Source of the DNA: an uncultured Bacteroidales bacterium
Lineage (GTDB): Bacteria; Bacteroidota; Bacteroidia; Bacteroidales; P3
Assembly (NCBI GenBank): GCA_949291555.1
Contig: CASEWE010000002.1
Location: 124,001-188,000 of the forward strand
Length of the DNA: 64,000 nucleotides
Direction: 5' to 3'
Below are positions 11,727 to 49,867 of this stretch, piece after piece (position 1 is the stretch's first letter; each line of letters begins with the position of its first letter). Below the pieces are notes generated by a model. The model was not told the DNA's origin. It worked only from the letters and a program-made list of their open reading frames with translations, and did no database searches. Both the position numbers and the translations under genes were made by a program.

Positions 11727-14303
11727 CTACCGTCTCTTCTTCTGTTTCTTTTCCTTGGCTTCTTGCCGCCTGGAGCGCCTTTCCGCCCGCTTCTCCACAT
11801 CGCCGACAGAACCGCGCGCCGAAGAACGGGCCTGCCGCCAGCTTTCTTCCCAGTCGGGCCGCTCCCGCCGCCCTCGGCGCTGGGCCGGCTCCTTGCCCCG
11901 GCCAGGCCGGCTCCCCTTCCGGAGGCCGTCAACCTCCTTTTCCCGCCACGCGCCAGCCTGGTCGGCAAAGACAAAGGTGAGCTGCTTCTTGTTCATGTCG
12001 ATTTCCTGCACCCGGATACGCACCTTCTGGCCCAGTTTGTAGATCTGGCCCGAATGCAGCCCTACCACCTGGTAGTTGTCTTCGTCCAATTCGTAATAGT
12101 CGTCGGTCAGGGAACGCAGCGGCACCATCCCTTCGCAGTAATTCCCGTCCAGGCAGACGTAAATGCCCCATTTGCTCACCCCCGAGATGGCGCCCGGGAA
12201 TTCCTCGCCCACCCGCTCTGCCAAGTATTCGGCCTGCTTGTACTTCACCGAAGTCCGTTCCGCATCGGCCGCCCGTTTTTCCATTTCCGAGCTGTGTTCG
12301 CATTTTTCCTCGAAATCCTCTTCCGGCACGCTGGCCCCGCCATGGATATAGCGTTCGAGCAAGCGGTGCACCATCAGGTCGGGATAACGCCGGATGGGAG
12401 AGGTGAAATGGGTGTAATAGGGGAAAGCCAGCCCGTAATGCCCTATGTTGCGCGTGCTGTAGCGGGCTTTGGCCATGGTTCGGATGGCAATGGTCTCGAT
12501 CATGTTCTGCTCGGCCTTTCCCTCGACCGCTGTCAGCAAGCCGTTGAAAGACTTCACCAAGCTGCCGCGGCTTTCCAGGTTCATCTTGTAGCCCAGCTTG
12601 GCGACAAACTGGGAGAAAACCTGCAATTTTTCCGGATTGGGTTCATCGTGGATCCGGTAAACAAACGTCTTGGGTTTGGTTTTCCTCTTCCCCTGCTTGC
12701 CGCCCCGATGCGGTGCGCCTTCCCCTCGCGGTCCTTCTTGCGCTTCTTCCTCGTTCTCCGCCCAGGCTTCATCCCGGCAAAGGTCCGAATCCGGCATAAG
12801 GCTCTTTTCCTTGTCGAACGACCCTACCCGGTTGGTGCTTTCGCTGCCGTAAACCCCGTTCTGAAGGGGTTTCACCTTCATGTCCTTTCCTATCAGCTCG
12901 GCCACCCGCTTGTTGGCCAAAAGCATGAATTCCTCCACCAGATGGTTCGATTCCTTGCTTTCCTTGATGTAAACGCCAACGGGCTTGGCCGTTTCCGGGT
13001 CGAGCCGGAACCGTACTTCCTGCGACTTGAAATTGATAGAGCCGGTACGGAACCGCCGGCCGCGCAAAATGGCCGAAAGCTTGAACAAGCCGGTAATGGC
13101 TTCTATGTCTTGCGCCGAACCGGCTGCCGACAGCCTCCGCGCATCGGCTTCCGACCCTTGGGCCAAACCAGCCGCCTCGATGATTTCCTGGGCCTGCTCG
13201 TAGGTGAAACGCCGGTCGGAATGGATGATTCCTTTCCCTATCCAGAAATGCTTGATCTGCGCCTTGTCGTCCATCTCGAACAAGACGCTGAAAGTGAACC
13301 TGTCCACATCGGGCTTGAGCGAGCACAAGTCGTTGCAGAGCTTTTCCGGCAGCATGGGGATGGTGCGGTCTACCAAGTAGACCGAAGTGGCCCGCGCATA
13401 GGCTTCCTGCTCGATGGCCCCGCCCTCTTTCACGAAATGGCTCACATCGGCAATGTGCACGCCCACTTCCGCATGGCCGTTCGGCAAGCGGCGGAACGAA
13501 AGGGCGTCGTCGAAGTCTTTGGCATCGGAGGGGTCGATAGTGCAGGTATAAACCGGGCGGAAATCGCGGCGGCGGGCCAGTTCCTTGGCCGTGACAGCGG
13601 CTTTCATCCTGCTTGCTTCCGCCTCGGCTTCCTTCGGGTAAGACAACGGAAAGTCGAACTCGGCCAGGATGGACTGCATTTCCACGTCGTTCTCGCCCGG
13701 ACGGCCGAGAATGTGGGTCACTTCGCCGATCGGGTTGTTCATGTACGGCGGCCAGTCGGTTATCCGCACCACGGCTTTCTGCCCGGAACGGACGCCGTTC
13801 AGGTTTTCCCGGGGCAGGAAAATATTGATCATGTTGGTACTGTCGGGAATCAGGAAAGCGTAACGCCCCGAAAAATCGACCGTTCCCACCACGTTCTTCT
13901 TGTTCCGCTTCAGCACCTCCACGATCTGGCCTTCCATCCGGCGGCCGGCCCGGGCCGGGAAAAGCTGCACGCGCACGTGGTCGCCGTGCAAGGCATGCCC
14001 GATGCTGTTAGGCCCTATGTAAACGTCTTCTATCTCCTTGTTGTCGGGAAGGATGTAGGCCTTGCCCGAGGATTTCATGTCGACAATGCCGGTAATGTAG
14101 CTGTAAAGCCCTTCGGGAATCCGCTTTCCGCCATGATGGAACCCTTCGTGGTCGAACCCGGCCCGGGCGGGATCGCGCCGGCCCTCGCTTCTCCGCGATG
14201 CGTGCCGGGAAGCCTCCGAAGCCGCTTTGCGAGACCGGGCCGAAGCCCCTGCTTTTTTCCTCGAAGACCGGCTTCCGCCGCGTTTTTCCTTTCTTCTGCT
14301 CAT
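11727..14303 (-). CDS. rnr: Ribonuclease R with extra basic termini and an insertion
   Basis: 858-residue 3'-5' exoribonuclease that degrades structured RNA. Cold-shock domains occupy residues ~60-220, the RNB catalytic domain ~255-640 (TIDPSDAKDFDDALS supplies the metal-binding aspartates; HFTSPIRRYPDLMVHR is the other signature) and an S1 domain ~690-770. Three regions are unusual: a basic Ser/Arg N-terminal extension of ~50 residues, a charged low-complexity insertion at ~485-544 just before FVYRIHDEPNPEKL inside RNB, and a strongly basic C-terminal tail of ~80 residues. The tails probably bind RNA. It follows pyrD on the same strand after about 100 nt. Confidence 0.93.
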   Translation of the reverse strand: MSRRKEKRGGSRSSRKKAGASARSRKAASEASRHASRRSEGRRDPARAGFDHEGFHHGGKRIPEGLYSYITGIVDMKSSGKAYILPDNKEIEDVYIGPNSIGHALHGDHVRVQLFPARAGRRMEGQIVEVLKRNKKNVVGTVDFSGRYAFLIPDSTNMINIFLPRENLNGVRSGQKAVVRITDWPPYMNNPIGEVTHILGRPGENDVEMQSILAEFDFPLSYPKEAEAEASRMKAAVTAKELARRRDFRPVYTCTIDPSDAKDFDDALSFRRLPNGHAEVGVHIADVSHFVKEGGAIEQEAYARATSVYLVDRTIPMLPEKLCNDLCSLKPDVDRFTFSVLFEMDDKAQIKHFWIGKGIIHSDRRFTYEQAQEIIEAAGLAQGSEADARRLSAAGSAQDIEAITGLFKLSAILRGRRFRTGSINFKSQEVRFRLDPETAKPVGVYIKESKESNHLVEEFMLLANKRVAELIGKDMKVKPLQNGVYGSESTNRVGSFDKEKSLMPDSDLCRDEAWAENEEEAQEGPRGEGAPHRGGKQGKRKTKPKTFVYRIHDEPNPEKLQVFSQFVAKLGYKMNLESRGSLVKSFNGLLTAVEGKAEQNMIETIAIRTMAKARYSTRNIGHYGLAFPYYTHFTSPIRRYPDLMVHRLLERYIHGGASVPEEDFEEKCEHSSEMEKRAADAERTSVKYKQAEYLAERVGEEFPGAISGVSKWGIYVCLDGNYCEGMVPLRSLTDDYYELDEDNYQVVGLHSGQIYKLGQKVRIRVQEIDMNKKQLTFVFADQAGAWREKEVDGLRKGSRPGRGKEPAQRRGRRERPDWEESWRQARSSARGSVGDVEKRAERRSRRQEAKEKKQKKRR

Positions 14304-16402: not shown

Positions 16403-17104
16403 TCAGGCTTCCGCTTGGGCTGCTTTCCCGGCCTTGGCCGGTTTTTCGCCCTTGCTTGCCGCTTCTTTCTTCCCGGTTTTTCCGGAGGACTTTGCGGCAG
16501 CGGGCTTGGCGGCTTTGGCGGTCTTGGCGGTTTTCTTCTCTTTCACGGCTTCGCCGGTTTCATCGGAAGCGGACGCCTTGGCGGATGCAGCTGCCTCGGA
16601 GCTGTTTTCCGCGCCTTGCCCGGAAGCCGAAGGCTCCTCGGCGTTTTCACCGGAAGCCGCCGAGTGTTCGGCCTCGTGTTCTTTCAGCCCTTCCCGCTGG
16701 GCCTTTTCCCGCTCGGAAAGTTCCTGATCTACCAAGCCGTTGGCTTGCAGGATATTGTACCATTGCAGCACCTTGCGGATATTGGAATCGTAGACCCGCT
16801 CCTGATCGTAGCCGGGAAGGATTTCGGCAAAATAGGCCCGAAGTTCTTCCGCCTTGCCGTTGTGGTCGGGGCAAGGCCCGGCGTTTTCCTTCTTATGGAT
16901 GCTGCGGAAGACATCGGGAAGCGATGTCTCGCCGTCTTGCGTGTAAATGGCTATCTCGGCCAAGGAACTGACACGATCCATATTGAAGATGGGCGTGCGT
17001 TTTTTGTCGGAAAGACTCTCCACGATGGCCGAAGTCCTGCCTTGCGAAATCAGTTTGTACAAGCCCGGCTTGCCCGGAACCGTAAAAATCAAAGACAAAT
17101 CCAT
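16403..17104 (-). CDS. DUF5606 protein with Ala/Lys-rich tail
   Basis: 233 residues. The first ~135 match the Bacteroidota family DUF5606 (MDLSLIFTVPGKPGLYKLIS, SLSDKKRTPIF, RVSSLAEIAIYT), whose function is unknown. The remainder is low complexity: first Glu/Ser/Ala-rich, then from about residue 190 a run of Ala and Lys (KTAKTAKAAKPAAAK and similar) like histone H1 tails. This tail resembles the one on the lysine aminomutase at 47313. The gene heads a leftward run with pyrK and pyrD and follows the promoter and repeats at 17185-17434. Confidence 0.82.
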   Translation of the reverse strand: MDLSLIFTVPGKPGLYKLISQGRTSAIVESLSDKKRTPIFNMDRVSSLAEIAIYTQDGETSLPDVFRSIHKKENAGPCPDHNGKAEELRAYFAEILPGYDQERVYDSNIRKVLQWYNILQANGLVDQELSEREKAQREGLKEHEAEHSAASGENAEEPSASGQGAENSSEAAASAKASASDETGEAVKEKKTAKTAKAAKPAAAKSSGKTGKKEAASKGEKPAKAGKAAQAEA

Positions 17105-43980: not shown

Positions 43981-44625
43981 ATGGACAAGTTCATCAGCGT
44001 TCAAGATGCCATCGACATGATCAAAGACGGCGACACCATCATGGTGGGAGGATTCCTGACGGTGGGAACCCCCTTGCGCATCATCGACGCATTGGCCGAA
44101 TCGGGCAAAAAGAACCTTACCCTCATCTGCAACGATACCGGCTACCCGGATCGCGGCGTGGGCAAACTGATAACGAACAAACAAGTTTCCAAGCTGTACG
44201 TGTCGCACATCGGCACCAACCAGAACACCATGGACCAGATGAACGCCGGCGAGCTCGAAGTGGAATTCTGCCCGCAGGGAAGCCTGGCCGAAAGAATCCG
44301 CTGCGGCGGGGCCGGCTTGGGCGGCGTGCTGACCGCGACCGGCATCGGCACCGTCGTGGCCGAAGGCAAGCAAGTCGTCAACGTCGACGGGAAAGATTAC
44401 CTGCTCGAAAAGCCTTTGCGCGCCGATTTCGCCCTGATCGGAGCCAGCAAGGGCGATACGGAGGGGAACCTGGTTTACCGGGGAACCAGCCAGAACTTCA
44501 ACCCCATGATGGCGATGGCGGCCGATACGGTAATTGCCGAAATCCAGAACATCGTAGAGCCCGGCCAACTGGAACCGGAAGCCGTCATCACGCCTTCCAT
44601 CCTGGTGAAATACATTGTCAGATAA
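43981..44625 (+). CDS. atoD: Acetate/butyrate-acetoacetate CoA-transferase, alpha subunit
   Basis: 214 residues, closely following E. coli Ato[74 protein letters not shown]. The enzyme moves CoA between acyl groups; in lysine fermentation it recycles CoA between acetoacetate/acetyl-CoA and butyryl-CoA/acetate or similar pairs. The active enzyme needs a beta subunit (AtoA), which bears the catalytic glutamate, and no beta gene follows here or occurs anywhere in the window. First gene after the operon promoter; kal follows after 16 nt. Confidence 0.92.
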
Positions 44626-44641
44626 ACCAAAAACCAAAAAT

Positions 44642-45031
44642 ATGACCCAGTACAAATCCACCATCCGCCTGCGCATGAGCTCGCACGACGCCCACTACGG
44701 CGGAAATCTGGTAGATGGAGCCCGCATGCTCCAGCTTTTCGGCGATGTGGCCACCGAACTCCTTATCCAGCGCGACGGCGATGAAGGCCTCTTCAAAGCC
44801 TACGACATGGTTGAGTTCATGGCCCCTGTCTACGCCGGCGATTACATCGAAGCCACCGGCGAAATCGTATCCGAAGGGAACACTTCCCGGAAAATGAAAT
44901 TCGAGGCCCGCAAGATCATTGCTCCCCGCCCCGACATAAGCGCTTCGGCGGCCGATGTCCTGGCCGAGCCGATCGTGGTATGTCGTGCCACCGGAACTTG
45001 CGTAACCCCCAAGAACTGCCAAAGGAAATAA
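44642..45031 (+). CDS. kal: 3-aminobutyryl-CoA ammonia-lyase
   Basis: 129-residue hot-dog fold protein that removes ammonia from 3-aminobutyryl-CoA to give crotonyl-CoA in lysine fermentation. It shows the family's [23 protein letters not shown], the acidic position in [15 protein letters not shown], and CRATGTCV near the end. Identification rests mainly on the gene order: between the CoA-transferase subunit and kce, exactly as in other lysine fermenters. The ATG at 44642 is preferred over one at 44615, which overlaps atoD. kce begins one base after the stop. Confidence 0.92.
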
Positions 45032-45032
45032 T

Positions 45033-45863
45033 ATGGAGAAACTGATAATCACGGCTGCCATTTGCGGAGCCGAAGTAACCAAAGAACAGAATCCCGCCGT
45101 TCCCTACACGGTGGAAGAAATCGTGCGGGAAACCAAATCGGCCGTTGACGCCGGCGCTGCCATCGTGCACTTGCACGTGCGCGAGGACGATGGAACGCCT
45201 ACCCAGGGGAAAGCCCGTTTCAAGGAGTGCATCGATGCCATTTACCAGGCCTGCCCGGACGTAATCCTGATCCCTTCCACCGGCGGTGCCGTGGGCATGA
45301 CGGCCGAAGAACGCCTGCAGCCCACCGAATTGTTTCCGGAAATGGCCACCTTGGACTGCGGGACCTGCAATTTCGGGGACGATGTGTTCGAGAACACCAT
45401 GCCCATGATGCGCGATTTCGGAAAACGCATGATAGAAAACAACATCAAGCCCGAATACGAGTGCTTTGAAATGGGCCATTTGGACACGATTCTGACGATG
45501 GCCAAGAAGGGTCTCGTTCCGGGTGCCCCGATGCAGTTCAACTTTGTATTGGGTGTTCCGGGCTGCACGCCGGCTACGGTGCCGAACCTCTGCTGGTTAG
45601 TCAACAACATCCCGGCCGGTTCCACCTGGACGGCTACCGGTATCGGCCGCCACGCATTCCAGCTGGCTGCCGCCGCTATCGTGATGGGCGGGAACGTCCG
45701 CGTAGGCTTCGAGGACAACCTCTACCTGGAAAAGGGCGTGCTGGCCAAGAGCAACGGCGAAATGGTGGCTAAAGTAGTCCGCATGGCCCAGGAACTGGGC
45801 CGCGGAGTGGCCACTTCGGCCGAGGCCCGCGAAATCCTTTCCCTGCCGGCCCGCAAGAAGTAA
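45033..45863 (+). CDS. kce: 3-keto-5-aminohexanoate cleavage enzyme
   Basis: 276-residue beta-keto acid cleavage (BKACE) TIM-barrel enzyme that condenses 3-keto-5-aminohexanoate with acetyl-CoA and splits it into 3-aminobutyryl-CoA and acetoacetate. LIITAAICGAEVTKEQNPAVPYT is the family N-terminus; zinc is expected to be held by the HLHVRE histidines and a glutamate near the end (GFEDN), and the family lysine/arginine positions in GHLDT are conserved. Its start is one base after kal, so the two are tightly coupled. kdd follows after about 210 nt. Confidence 0.94.
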   Translation: MEKLIITAAICGAEVTKEQNPAVPYTVEEIVRETKSAVDAGAAIVHLHVREDDGTPTQGKARFKECIDAIYQACPDVILIPSTGGAVGMTAEERLQPTELFPEMATLDCGTCNFGDDVFENTMPMMRDFGKRMIENNIKPEYECFEMGHLDTILTMAKKGLVPGAPMQFNFVLGVPGCTPATVPNLCWLVNNIPAGSTWTATGIGRHAFQLAAAAIVMGGNVRVGFEDNLYLEKGVLAKSNGEMVAKVVRMAQELGRGVATSAEAREILSLPARKK

Positions 45864-46072
45864 TTCCCGGGTTTTCCGGAATGCAAGCTGCAAGCCGGTA
45901 TCGAAACGGATTGCGAAAGGAAAAAGCCGATAGGCGCCCGGCGTGGCACGAGGACATGCCCCGAAAACGGGATGCGGGAACCCGCCGGCTTCTTCCGGAA
46001 ACCCGCCGGCCTTTCAACCGCCTGGTTTTTCAGGCTTTTCAACAGTATTCAAAAAAAATAAAAAAAGAGAAT

Positions 46073-47122
46073 ATGAGCACACAACCCAAAGGTAACAAAT
46101 ACGGTACCCACCGTGTAATTTCGCCCAAAGGCGTTCTTCCCCAGCCTGCCGACAAAATCGACAACAACATGGATGTCCTGTACGACAACGAGATCCTCAT
46201 CGACGTGCAGACCCTGAACATCGACTCGGCCAGCTTTACCCAAATCGAGGAGCAAGCCGGCGGCGACAAGGCCAAGATTGCCGAAATCATGCTCGGCATC
46301 GTGGCCAAGCAAGGCAAGCACCGCAACCCTGTAACCGGTTCGGGCGGCATGCTGTTAGGCACCGTTGAAAAAATCGGCGATGCCCTCAAAGGGAAAATCG
46401 ACCTGAAAGAAGGCGACAAGATCGCCACTTTGGTTTCCCTCTCGTTAACGCCCCTCCGCATCGACAAGATCAAGGAAATCCGCGCCGACATCGACCAGGT
46501 GGACATTGACGGGAAAGCCATACTCTTCGAAAGCGGCATTTATGCCAAGATTCCCTCCGACCTTCCCGAAAACCTGGCCTTGTCCGCCTTGGACGTGGCG
46601 GGAGCCCCGGCCCAGACGGCCAAGCTGGTAAAACCCGGCGACACCGTGCTCATCATCGGCGCCGGCGGAAAGAGCGGCATGCTTTGCTGCTACGAAGCCA
46701 AGAAGCGTGCCGGCGTGACCGGAAAGGTGATCGGCCTTTGCCACAGCCAGAAAAGCACCGAACGCTTGCAAAAGCTCGGATTCTGCGATTATGTCTTCTC
46801 GGCCGATGCCACCCAGCCGGTGCCTGTCTATGAAAAGATCATGGAACTGACCAACGGCGGGCTCTGCGACATCTGCATCAACAACGTGAACATCGAAAAC
46901 ACCGAAATGACCAGCATCCTCTGCACCAAAGACGATGGCCTGGTTTACTTCTTCTCGATGGCCACTTCCTTTACCAAAGCCGCTTTAGGTGCCGAAGGCG
47001 TTGGCAAGGACGTGACGATGATCGTCGGCAACGGCTACACCAAAGGCCATGCCGAAATCACGCTTCAGGAACTGCGCGAATGCAAGGCCCTGCGCGACAT
47101 CTTCACCGAATTGTACGCCTGA
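46073..47122 (+). CDS. kdd: L-erythro-3,5-diaminohexanoate dehydrogenase
   Basis: 349 residues; oxidatively deaminates 3,5-diaminohexanoate to 3-keto-5-aminohexanoate with NAD(P). The sequence starts MSTQPKGNKYGTHRVISPKG, characteristic of Kdd, and has a Rossmann segment VLIIGAGGKSGMLCCYEAKKR followed by GKVIGLCHSQKSTERLQKLG. It resembles the quinone-oxidoreductase/alcohol dehydrogenase superfamily but lacks the usual zinc-site cysteines. The ATG at 46073 is preceded by an A-rich stretch (AAAAAAAATAAAAAAAGAG), typical of Bacteroidota translation starts. Third step of the pathway encoded here. Confidence 0.94.
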   Translation: MSTQPKGNKYGTHRVISPKGVLPQPADKIDNNMDVLYDNEILIDVQTLNIDSASFTQIEEQAGGDKAKIAEIMLGIVAKQGKHRNPVTGSGGMLLGTVEKIGDALKGKIDLKEGDKIATLVSLSLTPLRIDKIKEIRADIDQVDIDGKAILFESGIYAKIPSDLPENLALSALDVAGAPAQTAKLVKPGDTVLIIGAGGKSGMLCCYEAKKRAGVTGKVIGLCHSQKSTERLQKLGFCDYVFSADATQPVPVYEKIMELTNGGLCDICINNVNIENTEMTSILCTKDDGLVYFFSMATSFTKAALGAEGVGKDVTMIVGNGYTKGHAEITLQELRECKALRDIFTELYA

Positions 47123-47312: not shown

Positions 47313-48911
47313 ATGATTAGCAGAAGAAAAGAATTATTCCCGAATGTGAGCGATGCCCAATGGAACGATTGGAAATGGCAGGTGAGGAACCGCATCGAAA
47401 CGCTCGAAGACCTGAAGAAATACATCAAGCTGACCAAAGAAGAAGAGGCTGGCGTAAAAAAGACGCTCCAAACCCTAAGGATGGCCATTACGCCTTACTA
47501 CCTGAGCCTTATCGACCCGAAGGATCCGAACGACCCTGTGCGCAAGCAGGCTATCCCGACCGGGGCTGAAACCCATATCTCGCCCGCCGACCTGCTCGAC
47601 CCGCTGCACGAGGACGAGGATTCCCCCACTCCCGGGCTCACCCACCGCTATCCCGACCGGGTGCTGTTCCTCATTACCGACCAGTGTTCCATGTACTGCC
47701 GCCATTGCACCCGCAGGCGCTTCGCCGGCCAGCACGACTGCGAAAGCCCCAATGAACGCATCGAAAAAGCCTTGGCCTACATCGAACGCACGCCCCAAGT
47801 ACGCGATGTGCTGCTCTCGGGCGGGGACGCGCTGCTGGTTTCCGATCAGAAACTGGAATACATCATCCAGCGTCTCCGTTCCATAAAGCACGTGGAAATC
47901 ATCCGTCTCGGCAGCCGGGTTCCCGTAGTCCTTCCCCAACGCATCACGCCCGAGCTGGTGAAGATGCTGGCCAAGTACCATCCTGTCTGGCTCAACACCC
48001 ACTTCAACCATCCCAACGAAATCACCGAGGAGAGTTCCGCCGCCTGCGCCCGGCTGGCCAACGCCGGCATTCCCTTGGGGAACCAGTCGGTCCTGCTCCG
48101 CGGGGTGAACGATGCGGTCAGCATCATGAAGAAATTGGTCTGCGAACTGGTAAAAATCCGCGTTCGCCCTTATTACATTTATCAATGCGACCTTTCCATG
48201 GGGCTTGAGCACTTCCGTACCCCGGTCAGCAAAGGCATCGAGATCATCGAAGGCCTGCGCGGGCATGTTTCGGGCTACGCCGTTCCCACCTTCGTGGTCG
48301 ATGCTCCCGGCGGGGGCGGGAAAATCCCCGTGATGCCGCAATACCTGATTGCCCTTGGCGGCGGAAAAGCCATCCTGCGCAATTACGAAGGCGTCATCAC
48401 CACCTACACCGAGCCCGACGACTACGACAACAGCCTCTCGGCCGAAATCGACGCCAAAAACCTCAAAACCGAAGGAATCAGCCAGCTGCTGAGCATGCCT
48501 ACCGGAAAGGTGATTTCCTTGGAACCCGCCCGTCTGGAAAGGCATGAACGGGCCAAGCTCCGCATGCAAACGGCCGAAGCCCAGCCCGGAGCCGCCCGCG
48601 CCGAAAAGAAAGGCCGGAAAGCCGCGGCATCGAAAAGCGCGGCCAAGAGCCCGGCCAAGCGTACGGCCAAGAGCACAGGCAAGGCCGGAAAAACAAAAAC
48701 GGAAACCGGTGCCGCGGCAAAGGCCACAGCGGGAAAAGCCATAGCGGCAAAGGCTATAGCGGCAAAGGCCCCGAAAGCCGCAACGGCAAAAAAAGCCAAA
48801 GCAGCGGCCAAAGCCACCGCGGCCCCGAAAGCCGGCAAGGCGGCAGCCAAAAAGCAAACCGCGGCCCGGAAAACGGCCTCCGCCCGGAAAACGGGTCCTG
48901 CAAAAAAATAA
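47313..48911 (+). CDS. kamA: Lysine 2,3-aminomutase with Ala/Lys-rich C-terminal tail
   Basis: Radical-SAM, PLP enzyme converting L-lysine to L-beta-lysine, the first step of lysine fermentation. The [4Fe-4S] cysteines are Cys125, Cys129 and Cys132 (CSMYCRHC) and the PLP lysine is Lys337 (PGGGGKIPV); these numbers coincide with those of the Clostridium subterminale enzyme, supporting the start at 47313. That enzyme ends near residue 416. Here a ~115-residue tail follows (about 48561-48908), almost only Ala, Lys, Thr, Gly, Ser and Pro, with SPAKR and AAKA repeats like eukaryotic histone H1 or bacterial H1-like proteins. The frame is continuous and a terminator follows at 48996. Confidence 0.95.
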   Translation: MISRRKELFPNVSDAQWNDWKWQVRNRIETLEDLKKYIKLTKEEEAGVKKTLQTLRMAITPYYLSLIDPKDPNDPVRKQAIPTGAETHISPADLLDPLHEDEDSPTPGLTHRYPDRVLFLITDQCSMYCRHCTRRRFAGQHDCESPNERIEKALAYIERTPQVRDVLLSGGDALLVSDQKLEYIIQRLRSIKHVEIIRLGSRVPVVLPQRITPELVKMLAKYHPVWLNTHFNHPNEITEESSAACARLANAGIPLGNQSVLLRGVNDAVSIMKKLVCELVKIRVRPYYIYQCDLSMGLEHFRTPVSKGIEIIEGLRGHVSGYAVPTFVVDAPGGGGKIPVMPQYLIALGGGKAILRNYEGVITTYTEPDDYDNSLSAEIDAKNLKTEGISQLLSMPTGKVISLEPARLERHERAKLRMQTAEAQPGAARAEKKGRKAAASKSAAKSPAKRTAKSTGKAGKTKTETGAAAKATAGKAIAAKAIAAKAPKAATAKKAKAAAKATAAPKAGKAAAKKQTAARKTASARKTGPAKK

Positions 48912-49291: not shown

Positions 49292-49867
49292 ATGAAAACA
49301 TTCACGCTACCGCCGCTCCCTTACGCGGAAACCGCACTGGAGCCTTTCATTTCCGCCCGAACCCTTTCTTTCCATCATGGAAAACACCATCAAGCTTATA
49401 TAGACAACCTGAACCGGCTCAAAGCCGGCACGCCTTTCGAAGATGCCGGTCTGGAAGAAATCCTGACAGGAGCCGAAGGCGCCCTTTACAACAACGCGGC
49501 CCAGACTTGGAATCATACTTTCTACTGGAATTGCCTTTCCCCGCAGGGCGGCGGCGAACCCCAAGGCGCGCTCAAAGAAGCCATTGAAAGGAAATGGGGG
49601 TCGTTCGAGGCCTTCAAGGAAGCCTTTTCCGCAGCCGCCAACGGGCTTTTCGGATCGGGCTGGGCCTGGCTGGCGAAATCCGGGCAAGAACTCGAAATCA
49701 TTGCCACGCCCAATGCAGGCAACCCCCTGAAGGAAAAAAAGGAACCCCTGCTCGTAATCGATGTGTGGGAACACGCCTATTACCTCGACAAACAAAACCG
49801 CCGGGCCGACTACGTGGCCGACTTCTGGAAAATCGTCGACTGGAAAACGGTCTCCGAGCGGTTCTGA
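49292..49867 (+). CDS. sodB: Fe/Mn superoxide dismutase
   Basis: 191-residue dismutase of the iron type. Metal ligands are the histidine in FHHGKHHQAY, the histidine in QTWNHTFYWNCL, and the Asp/His of DVWEHAYYLDKQNRRADY; FGSGWAWL and the tryptophan-rich C-terminus are as in the family. Protects the oxygen-sensitive radical-SAM and Fe-S enzymes of an anaerobe. Probably its own transcript, since a terminator precedes it; aroK follows after 76 nt. Confidence 0.95.
   Translation: MKTFTLPPLPYAETALEPFISARTLSFHHGKHHQAYIDNLNRLKAGTPFEDAGLEEILTGAEGALYNNAAQTWNHTFYWNCLSPQGGGEPQGALKEAIERKWGSFEAFKEAFSAAANGLFGSGWAWLAKSGQELEIIATPNAGNPLKEKKEPLLVIDVWEHAYYLDKQNRRADYVADFWKIVDWKTVSERF

Follow-up and report, generated by a model that had tools for sequence, protein, structure and literature searches.

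The kamA locus and the tail of its product

The window (the whole stretch of DNA analysed here, 64,000 nucleotides) carries on its forward strand a run of genes of which kamA is the last. The run comprises a gene for a 3-oxoacid CoA-transferase subunit A type protein (43981..44625), located upstream of kal (3-aminobutyryl-CoA ammonia lyase, 44615..45031), then kce (3-keto-5-aminohexanoate cleavage enzyme, 45033..45863) and kdd (3,5-diaminohexanoate dehydrogenase, 46073..47122), which lies directly 5' of kamA and whose start was taken at MSTQPK within an open reading frame spanning 45881-47122. The next gene after kamA, also on the forward strand, encodes a superoxide dismutase family protein (sod, 49292..49867) that scored below the curated equivalog cut-offs. 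In the same genome, kamD and an adjoining kamE are found at another site than kamA.

The kamA frame runs from the ATG at 47313 to the stop codon at 48909-48911, is open throughout and encodes 532 amino acids (48561 being the first base of codon 417). Residues 1-413 (47313..48551, forward strand) make up the catalytic part. They align with PDB entry 2a5h, which holds four chains and of which Clostridium subterminale is presumably the source organism, and residues 13-413 passed the curated equivalog cut-off of TIGR03820 (lysine 2,3-aminomutase) with 618.2 versus 525.4 bits. The CxxxCxxC cluster motif (Cys125, Cys129 and Cys132) and the PLP lysine (Lys337), which an earlier note on this DNA had named as cofactor residues, were all found. 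KamA is the enzyme that opens lysine fermentation. The window protein is a predicted lysine 2,3-aminomutase, and the presence of kal, kce and kdd beside it and of kamD and kamE elsewhere would fit that pathway. The catalytic part and its cofactor residues are common to 2a5h and the window KamA, but their lengths differ, with 416 residues in the former and 532 in the latter.

The 119 residues that follow residue 413 (414-532; 48552..48911 on the forward strand, stop codon included) form an Ala/Lys tail. It contains 28 lysines (24%), 6 arginines and only 3 aspartates and glutamates together, with alanine at 38%, so that its net charge is +31 compared with +1 for the 413-residue core. The Ala/Lys extension reported in the earlier note is thus confirmed, and the core that precedes it is intact. 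Two tandem repeats lie within the tail on the forward strand, one of 12 bp in 3.4 copies (48636..48676) and one of 15 bp in 3.8 copies (48714..48770). Neither KPAA repeats nor an AT-hook RGR-P or GRP core was found in the window tail.

A frameshift, a loss of the stop codon or an assembly error is unlikely as the source of the tail, because a close homologue matches it and the tails of the 10 other members of the genus are open to their own stop codons. This homologue (P0002, 533 amino acids, from a cluster of 22 sequences) is 98% identical and possesses the same tail apart from small indels of repeat units; at the site of the 15-bp repeat it is one AIAAK unit shorter than the window protein. 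The tail also contains two runs of seven A (48788-48794 and 48902-48908), the second of which reaches the stop codon. Judged from their sequence, both could be sites of polymerase slippage and of a change of frame. An AlphaFold model of full-length KamA was poor even in the core (mean pLDDT 50), and it is therefore uninformative about disorder of the tail.

Tailed and tail-less relatives

We found kamA in 11 of the 13 genomes searched of the genus, and all 11 encoded proteins bear a basic tail. The tails extend 17, 25, 31, 40, 40, 41, 119 (the window), 168, 198, 209 and 219 residues past position 413. In the two other genomes, G004 and G006, kamA was not found, a lone weak match in G006 (E 9e-4, 28% identity) not being counted. 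By contrast, KamAs of relatives in the family and order, including the sister genus g9, end 2-9 residues past the same point in 25 of 25 cases examined (3-9 residues at the 19 loci L092-L110 and 2-4 at the six loci L162-L167). These 25 are the KamAs at about 70% identity or more that the genome search gave outside the genus, its other rows there lying at 56% or less. At one of them (L167, from a genome of the same family), kamA consists of two overlapping pieces in different frames, indicating either a sequencing error or a broken gene. The window tail is thus not an isolated case.

Over the 110 loci collected, more than 12 tail residues were present in 14, namely the 11 KamAs of the genus, L001 (the same DNA as L091), L033 and L035, and the other 96 were without. 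As L001-L080 represent the top 80 out of 582 matches, prevalence cannot be taken from them. Among the best matches listed in two protein searches, 51 of 232 proteins, the window's included, extend at least 10 residues past the core. One of these 51, P0064, diverges from the family past residue 358 in a frameshift-like manner that would reflect a sequencing error or a decaying copy.

In a tree of 37 rows chosen from the 110 loci, the tailed genus forms one clade (100/99) beside the tail-less g9. L033 and L035, whose Ala/Lys tails number 18 and 32 residues, group separately from the genus in a second clade (100/99), indicating that Ala/Lys tails arose at least twice within this tree. Database relatives of these two (P0099 and P0122-P0129) possess 11-44 tail residues. 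The NCBI name Candidatus Egerieousia sp. is attached to the longest of them (P0128, 44 residues) but also to P0130 (9 residues) and L078 (6 residues). The statement of the earlier note that no aminomutase with such an extension was known fails for this genus and for the second Bacteroidales lineage. No account of such a KamA tail was found in the literature, the search being confined to open-access papers, part of them judged by title; the passages on C-terminal extensions seen in PMC9081730 concern ALAS and ODC.

Two types of tail were distinguished in the genus, and the root of the genus in the 37-row tree is an open fork between them. The Ala/Lys type is found in seven members, the window among them, which form one clade (99/99) and have tails of 17-119 residues. 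The AT-hook-like type is found in the other four (G001, G002, G009 and G011), whose tails contain 2-6 RGR[KPR] motifs each, as in KRRGRKPK. The motifs at these four loci (L088-L091) are mostly RGRKP or RGRKK, with RGRP occurring once, in L088. No Pfam AT_hook match was obtained for four homologues of this type at E values up to 10, in a search whose filters may drop short motifs. Arginine accounts for more than one third of the basic residues in this branch (K:R of 30:17, 35:21, 35:20 and 39:20).

Near the end of the four AT-hook-like tails lies a conserved block, EPKRRGRK(K/P)KIIPPG(V/I)LAALPHRKK in an alignment of eight sequences. Over the 25 codons of the block EPKRRGRKKKIIPPGVLAALPHRKK, all six pairs of the four loci differ by 0-1 amino acids and by 14-18 synonymous changes, indicating that the frame is translated in this branch and the peptide held. 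The block is under strong purifying selection. When compared with solved structures it matched one chain, RPB_PLP3_R6 (E 0.067), which we take to be a designed protein. A search with the 26-residue block against 247 genomes of the order was empty, a result that permits no inference as the set may include no block-bearing genome. In the Ala/Lys branch, the 21 pairs differ by 3-23 nonsynonymous and 3-14 synonymous changes in aligned tail codons; between the window and the six other members there are 12-23 nonsynonymous differences in 17-41 aligned codons.

Probable boundaries of recombination fall in the AT-hook-like tails. At L088 (G011), L089 (G002) and L090 (G001), the core and upstream sequence are 95-97% identical and the downstream sequence 86-90%. 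The kamA cores of G001 and G011 differ by 34 bases in 1236 and by no amino acid; their 97%-identical stretch reaches into the tail's first half, beyond which identity drops to 86%, and the 95%-identical stretch shared by G011 and G002 stops eight codons into the tail. On this pattern of identity, the upstream part of these loci was probably exchanged recently while an older, diverged end of the tail was kept.

Specificity of the tail to KamA was examined within genomes. When the window tail was searched against its own draft genome, KamA itself was the only match below E 0.03. A search of the AT-hook type over the four draft genomes of that branch placed every match below E 0.01 inside kamA. 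We also compared the C-termini of 300 genes predicted by a purpose-written codon-usage gene finder on 475 kb (21%) of the window's own genome, the window included. KamA ranked first of the 300 both in the net charge carried by the last 100 residues (+29, followed by RNase R at +17) and in K+A fraction (0.65, the next being 0.48). Neither the tail searches nor the 300-gene sample revealed a general tendency to append such tails across the genome. The RNase R in second place lies in the window itself (11727-14303, reverse strand) and has an Arg/Lys-rich end. Elsewhere in the window, a 233-residue protein that matched a model of adenylate kinase only weakly (16403-17104, reverse strand) has an Ala/Lys/Glu-rich C-terminal part, with a net charge of +2 over its last 100 residues.

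Composition and history of the tails

Tail composition was compared with dinucleotide shuffles of the tail DNA. The DNA of the window tail is poor in T, and 1000 shuffles of it gave a mean net charge of 33.6 versus the 31 observed. Net charge did not exceed that of shuffles of their own DNA in any of five long tails, the window's included. The four AT-hook-like tails are even richer in acidic residues than most shuffles, since as few or fewer were reached in 970-1000 of 1000. For the five shorter tails of the genus that were tested, the charge was weakly above shuffles (reached by 43-175 of 1000) and the lysine count clearly so (0 of 1000). The window tail has 28 lysines versus a shuffle mean of 20.4, a number reached by 1 of 1000 shuffles, and the lysine counts of six of the seven Ala/Lys tails in the genus (all but L084) were reached by 0-1 of 1000 each. 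In the second lineage, the charge of the L035 tail was reached by 4 of 1000 shuffles and its lysine count by none. This null is not clean, because it keeps a T poverty that resides chiefly at the first two codon positions (0.02 and 0.03 in the tail versus 0.12 and 0.28 in the core), as a choice at the protein level would give. Charge alone, judged by shuffles, proves nothing for the tails.

KamAs without a tail also end in basic residues. Lysine makes up 36% of 410 tip residues from 93 tail-less loci versus 4.9% of their cores, and the tips are net positive at 79 of the 93; the four C-terminal residues of the 300 predicted genes, a rough control taken from another set of organisms than the 93 loci, contain 10.2% lysine. 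The tail may accordingly have begun as the short Lys-rich C-terminal tip of most relatives and been lengthened by repeat slippage, a growth perhaps eased by loss of a near 3' neighbour. In the sister genus g9 this neighbour is kamD, which starts a few bases past the kamA stop codon; in the tailed genus, kamD was absent from the 1.2-1.5 kb read 3' of kamA (5.7 kb for L001). Downstream of kamA, sod was seen at 6 of the 10 other tailed loci of the genus, or 8 of 12 when the window and L001 are counted. However, kamD was also absent from at least 5.7 kb downstream at 23 tail-less loci, and its loss is therefore insufficient for tail growth. L033 and L035, in turn, have tails with kamD in the common layout, 2.4 kb downstream. 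Loss of the close neighbour is thus neither sufficient nor needed for tail growth.

Possible roles of the tail

The KamA tail is real, specific and genus-wide, and one part of it is under clear selection; what it does biochemically we infer. With moderate confidence, we propose that this genuine extension of the enzyme is flexible and anchors KamA to nucleic acid. The proposal is based on the occurrence of two DNA-binding-like chemistries at one place, on the conserved block and on the precedent of AlgP and PhaF. For Ala/Lys tails of similar make-up, PMC9239181 reports DNA binding in AlgP and considers it likely in PhaF, whose oligomerisation domain is thought to cause tetramerisation. These Pseudomonas proteins, with histone-H1-like KPAA repeats, resemble the window KamA in bearing a long, low-complexity Ala/Lys C-terminal region on another domain. 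They differ in that the window tail sits on a radical-SAM enzyme, lacks KPAA units and is a putative DNA binder. The tails of the other branch are similarly like AT-hook proteins of the HMGA type in having 2-6 RGR[KPR] motifs in a basic setting; unlike these, they carry mostly RGRKP or RGRKK instead of the GRP core described in PMC11354804, they belong to a bacterial enzyme, and the window tail is without the motif. The earlier note had suggested binding to nucleic acid or polyphosphate. The AT-hook-like arrays with their conserved block in sister species, together with the likeness to AlgP and PhaF, lend binding to nucleic acid or another polyanion indirect support.

In the proposed anchor, the tail would be disordered and would grip the phosphate backbone or, in AT-rich DNA, the minor groove. 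According to PMC9081730, lysine 2,3-aminomutase forms homotetramers, and four tails per enzyme would therefore add up to tight binding. KamA would then be held at the nucleoid or at RNA rather than float free, and candidate gains to the cell are placement of KamA, an additional role in regulation or protection of the iron-sulphur cluster. A bolder version, which we consider unlikely, takes KamA for a nucleoid-associated protein whose H1-like and AT-hook DNA-gripping tails were swapped within the genus, so that it would ferment lysine and also organise or regulate DNA. Two lineages have given the same fermentation enzyme a polycationic tail, and one genus keeps two unlike forms of it; this amounts to a natural experiment on basic tails of metabolic enzymes, for which the sister genus supplies tail-less controls. 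Should the tail bind DNA or RNA, amino-acid fermentation in Bacteroidales would be linked to nucleoid organisation, and KamA would offer a clean system for the study of enzyme anchoring.

The Ala/Lys tail might instead be a tolerated low-complexity extension with little or no function, grown by repeat slippage in the last gene of the run. The 12-bp and 15-bp repeats of the window tail, the repeat-unit indels between P0001 and P0002, a net charge not above shuffles, the variation in length and wide divergence of the seven Ala/Lys tails and the position of kamD in g9 compared with the tailed genus are all consistent with such a history. Yet a basic tail has been kept in all 11 KamAs found in the genus, the AT-hook block is conserved as protein despite heavy synonymous change, and the lysine counts of the six Ala/Lys tails are hardly ever matched by shuffles. 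Nor does gene order help this explanation, given the second lineage tailed with kamD in its common place and the tail-less loci that lack kamD nearby. We regard neutral growth as a possible but rather improbable account. The anchor to nucleic acid also competes with the idea, raised in the earlier note, of a supply sensor, in which terminal lysine codons stall at low charged lysyl-tRNA and incomplete KamA is destroyed. The 28 lysine codons of the window tail and the preference for lysine beyond shuffles in Ala/Lys tails would suit it. It is nevertheless disfavoured, to the point of being highly improbable, because the number of tail lysines ranges from 6 to 39 over the genus, one tail having just 6, and because arginine takes so large a share in the AT-hook branch. 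In addition, the sequence of the conserved block is mixed and has no lysine run, and the AAA:AAG usage of the window tail (17:11) is in about the same proportion as that of the core (14:10).

A tail held to some other polyanion or to an acidic protein in place of the nucleoid, such as polyphosphate, the ribosome or a cluster of the pathway enzymes as the earlier note had also suggested, is distinctly unlikely in our estimate. Passages in the literature make it conceivable, as AlgP, with its H1-like tail, is found in association with polyphosphate granules (PMC9239181) and AT-hooks can also bind RNA (PMC11354804). Ppk1 was found in 4 of 5 long-tailed versus 0 of 6 short-tailed genomes, a difference (Fisher p 0.015) uncorrected for kinship and based on a post hoc split. 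Against this, Ppk1 was present in both tail-less g9 genomes searched and was not found in G009, a 98% complete genome with the longest tail. PPK2 was found in none of 13 genomes. A search for complementary, acidic extensions on KamD or KamE found none in four genomes. Polyphosphate, which the earlier note had offered as a general partner, is weakened in that capacity, with Ppk1 undetected in 7 of the 11 tailed genomes and PPK2 in all 11; for some species it is a real alternative to nucleic acid. The tailed genomes in which Ppk1 was detected are G000, G001, G002 and G011 only.
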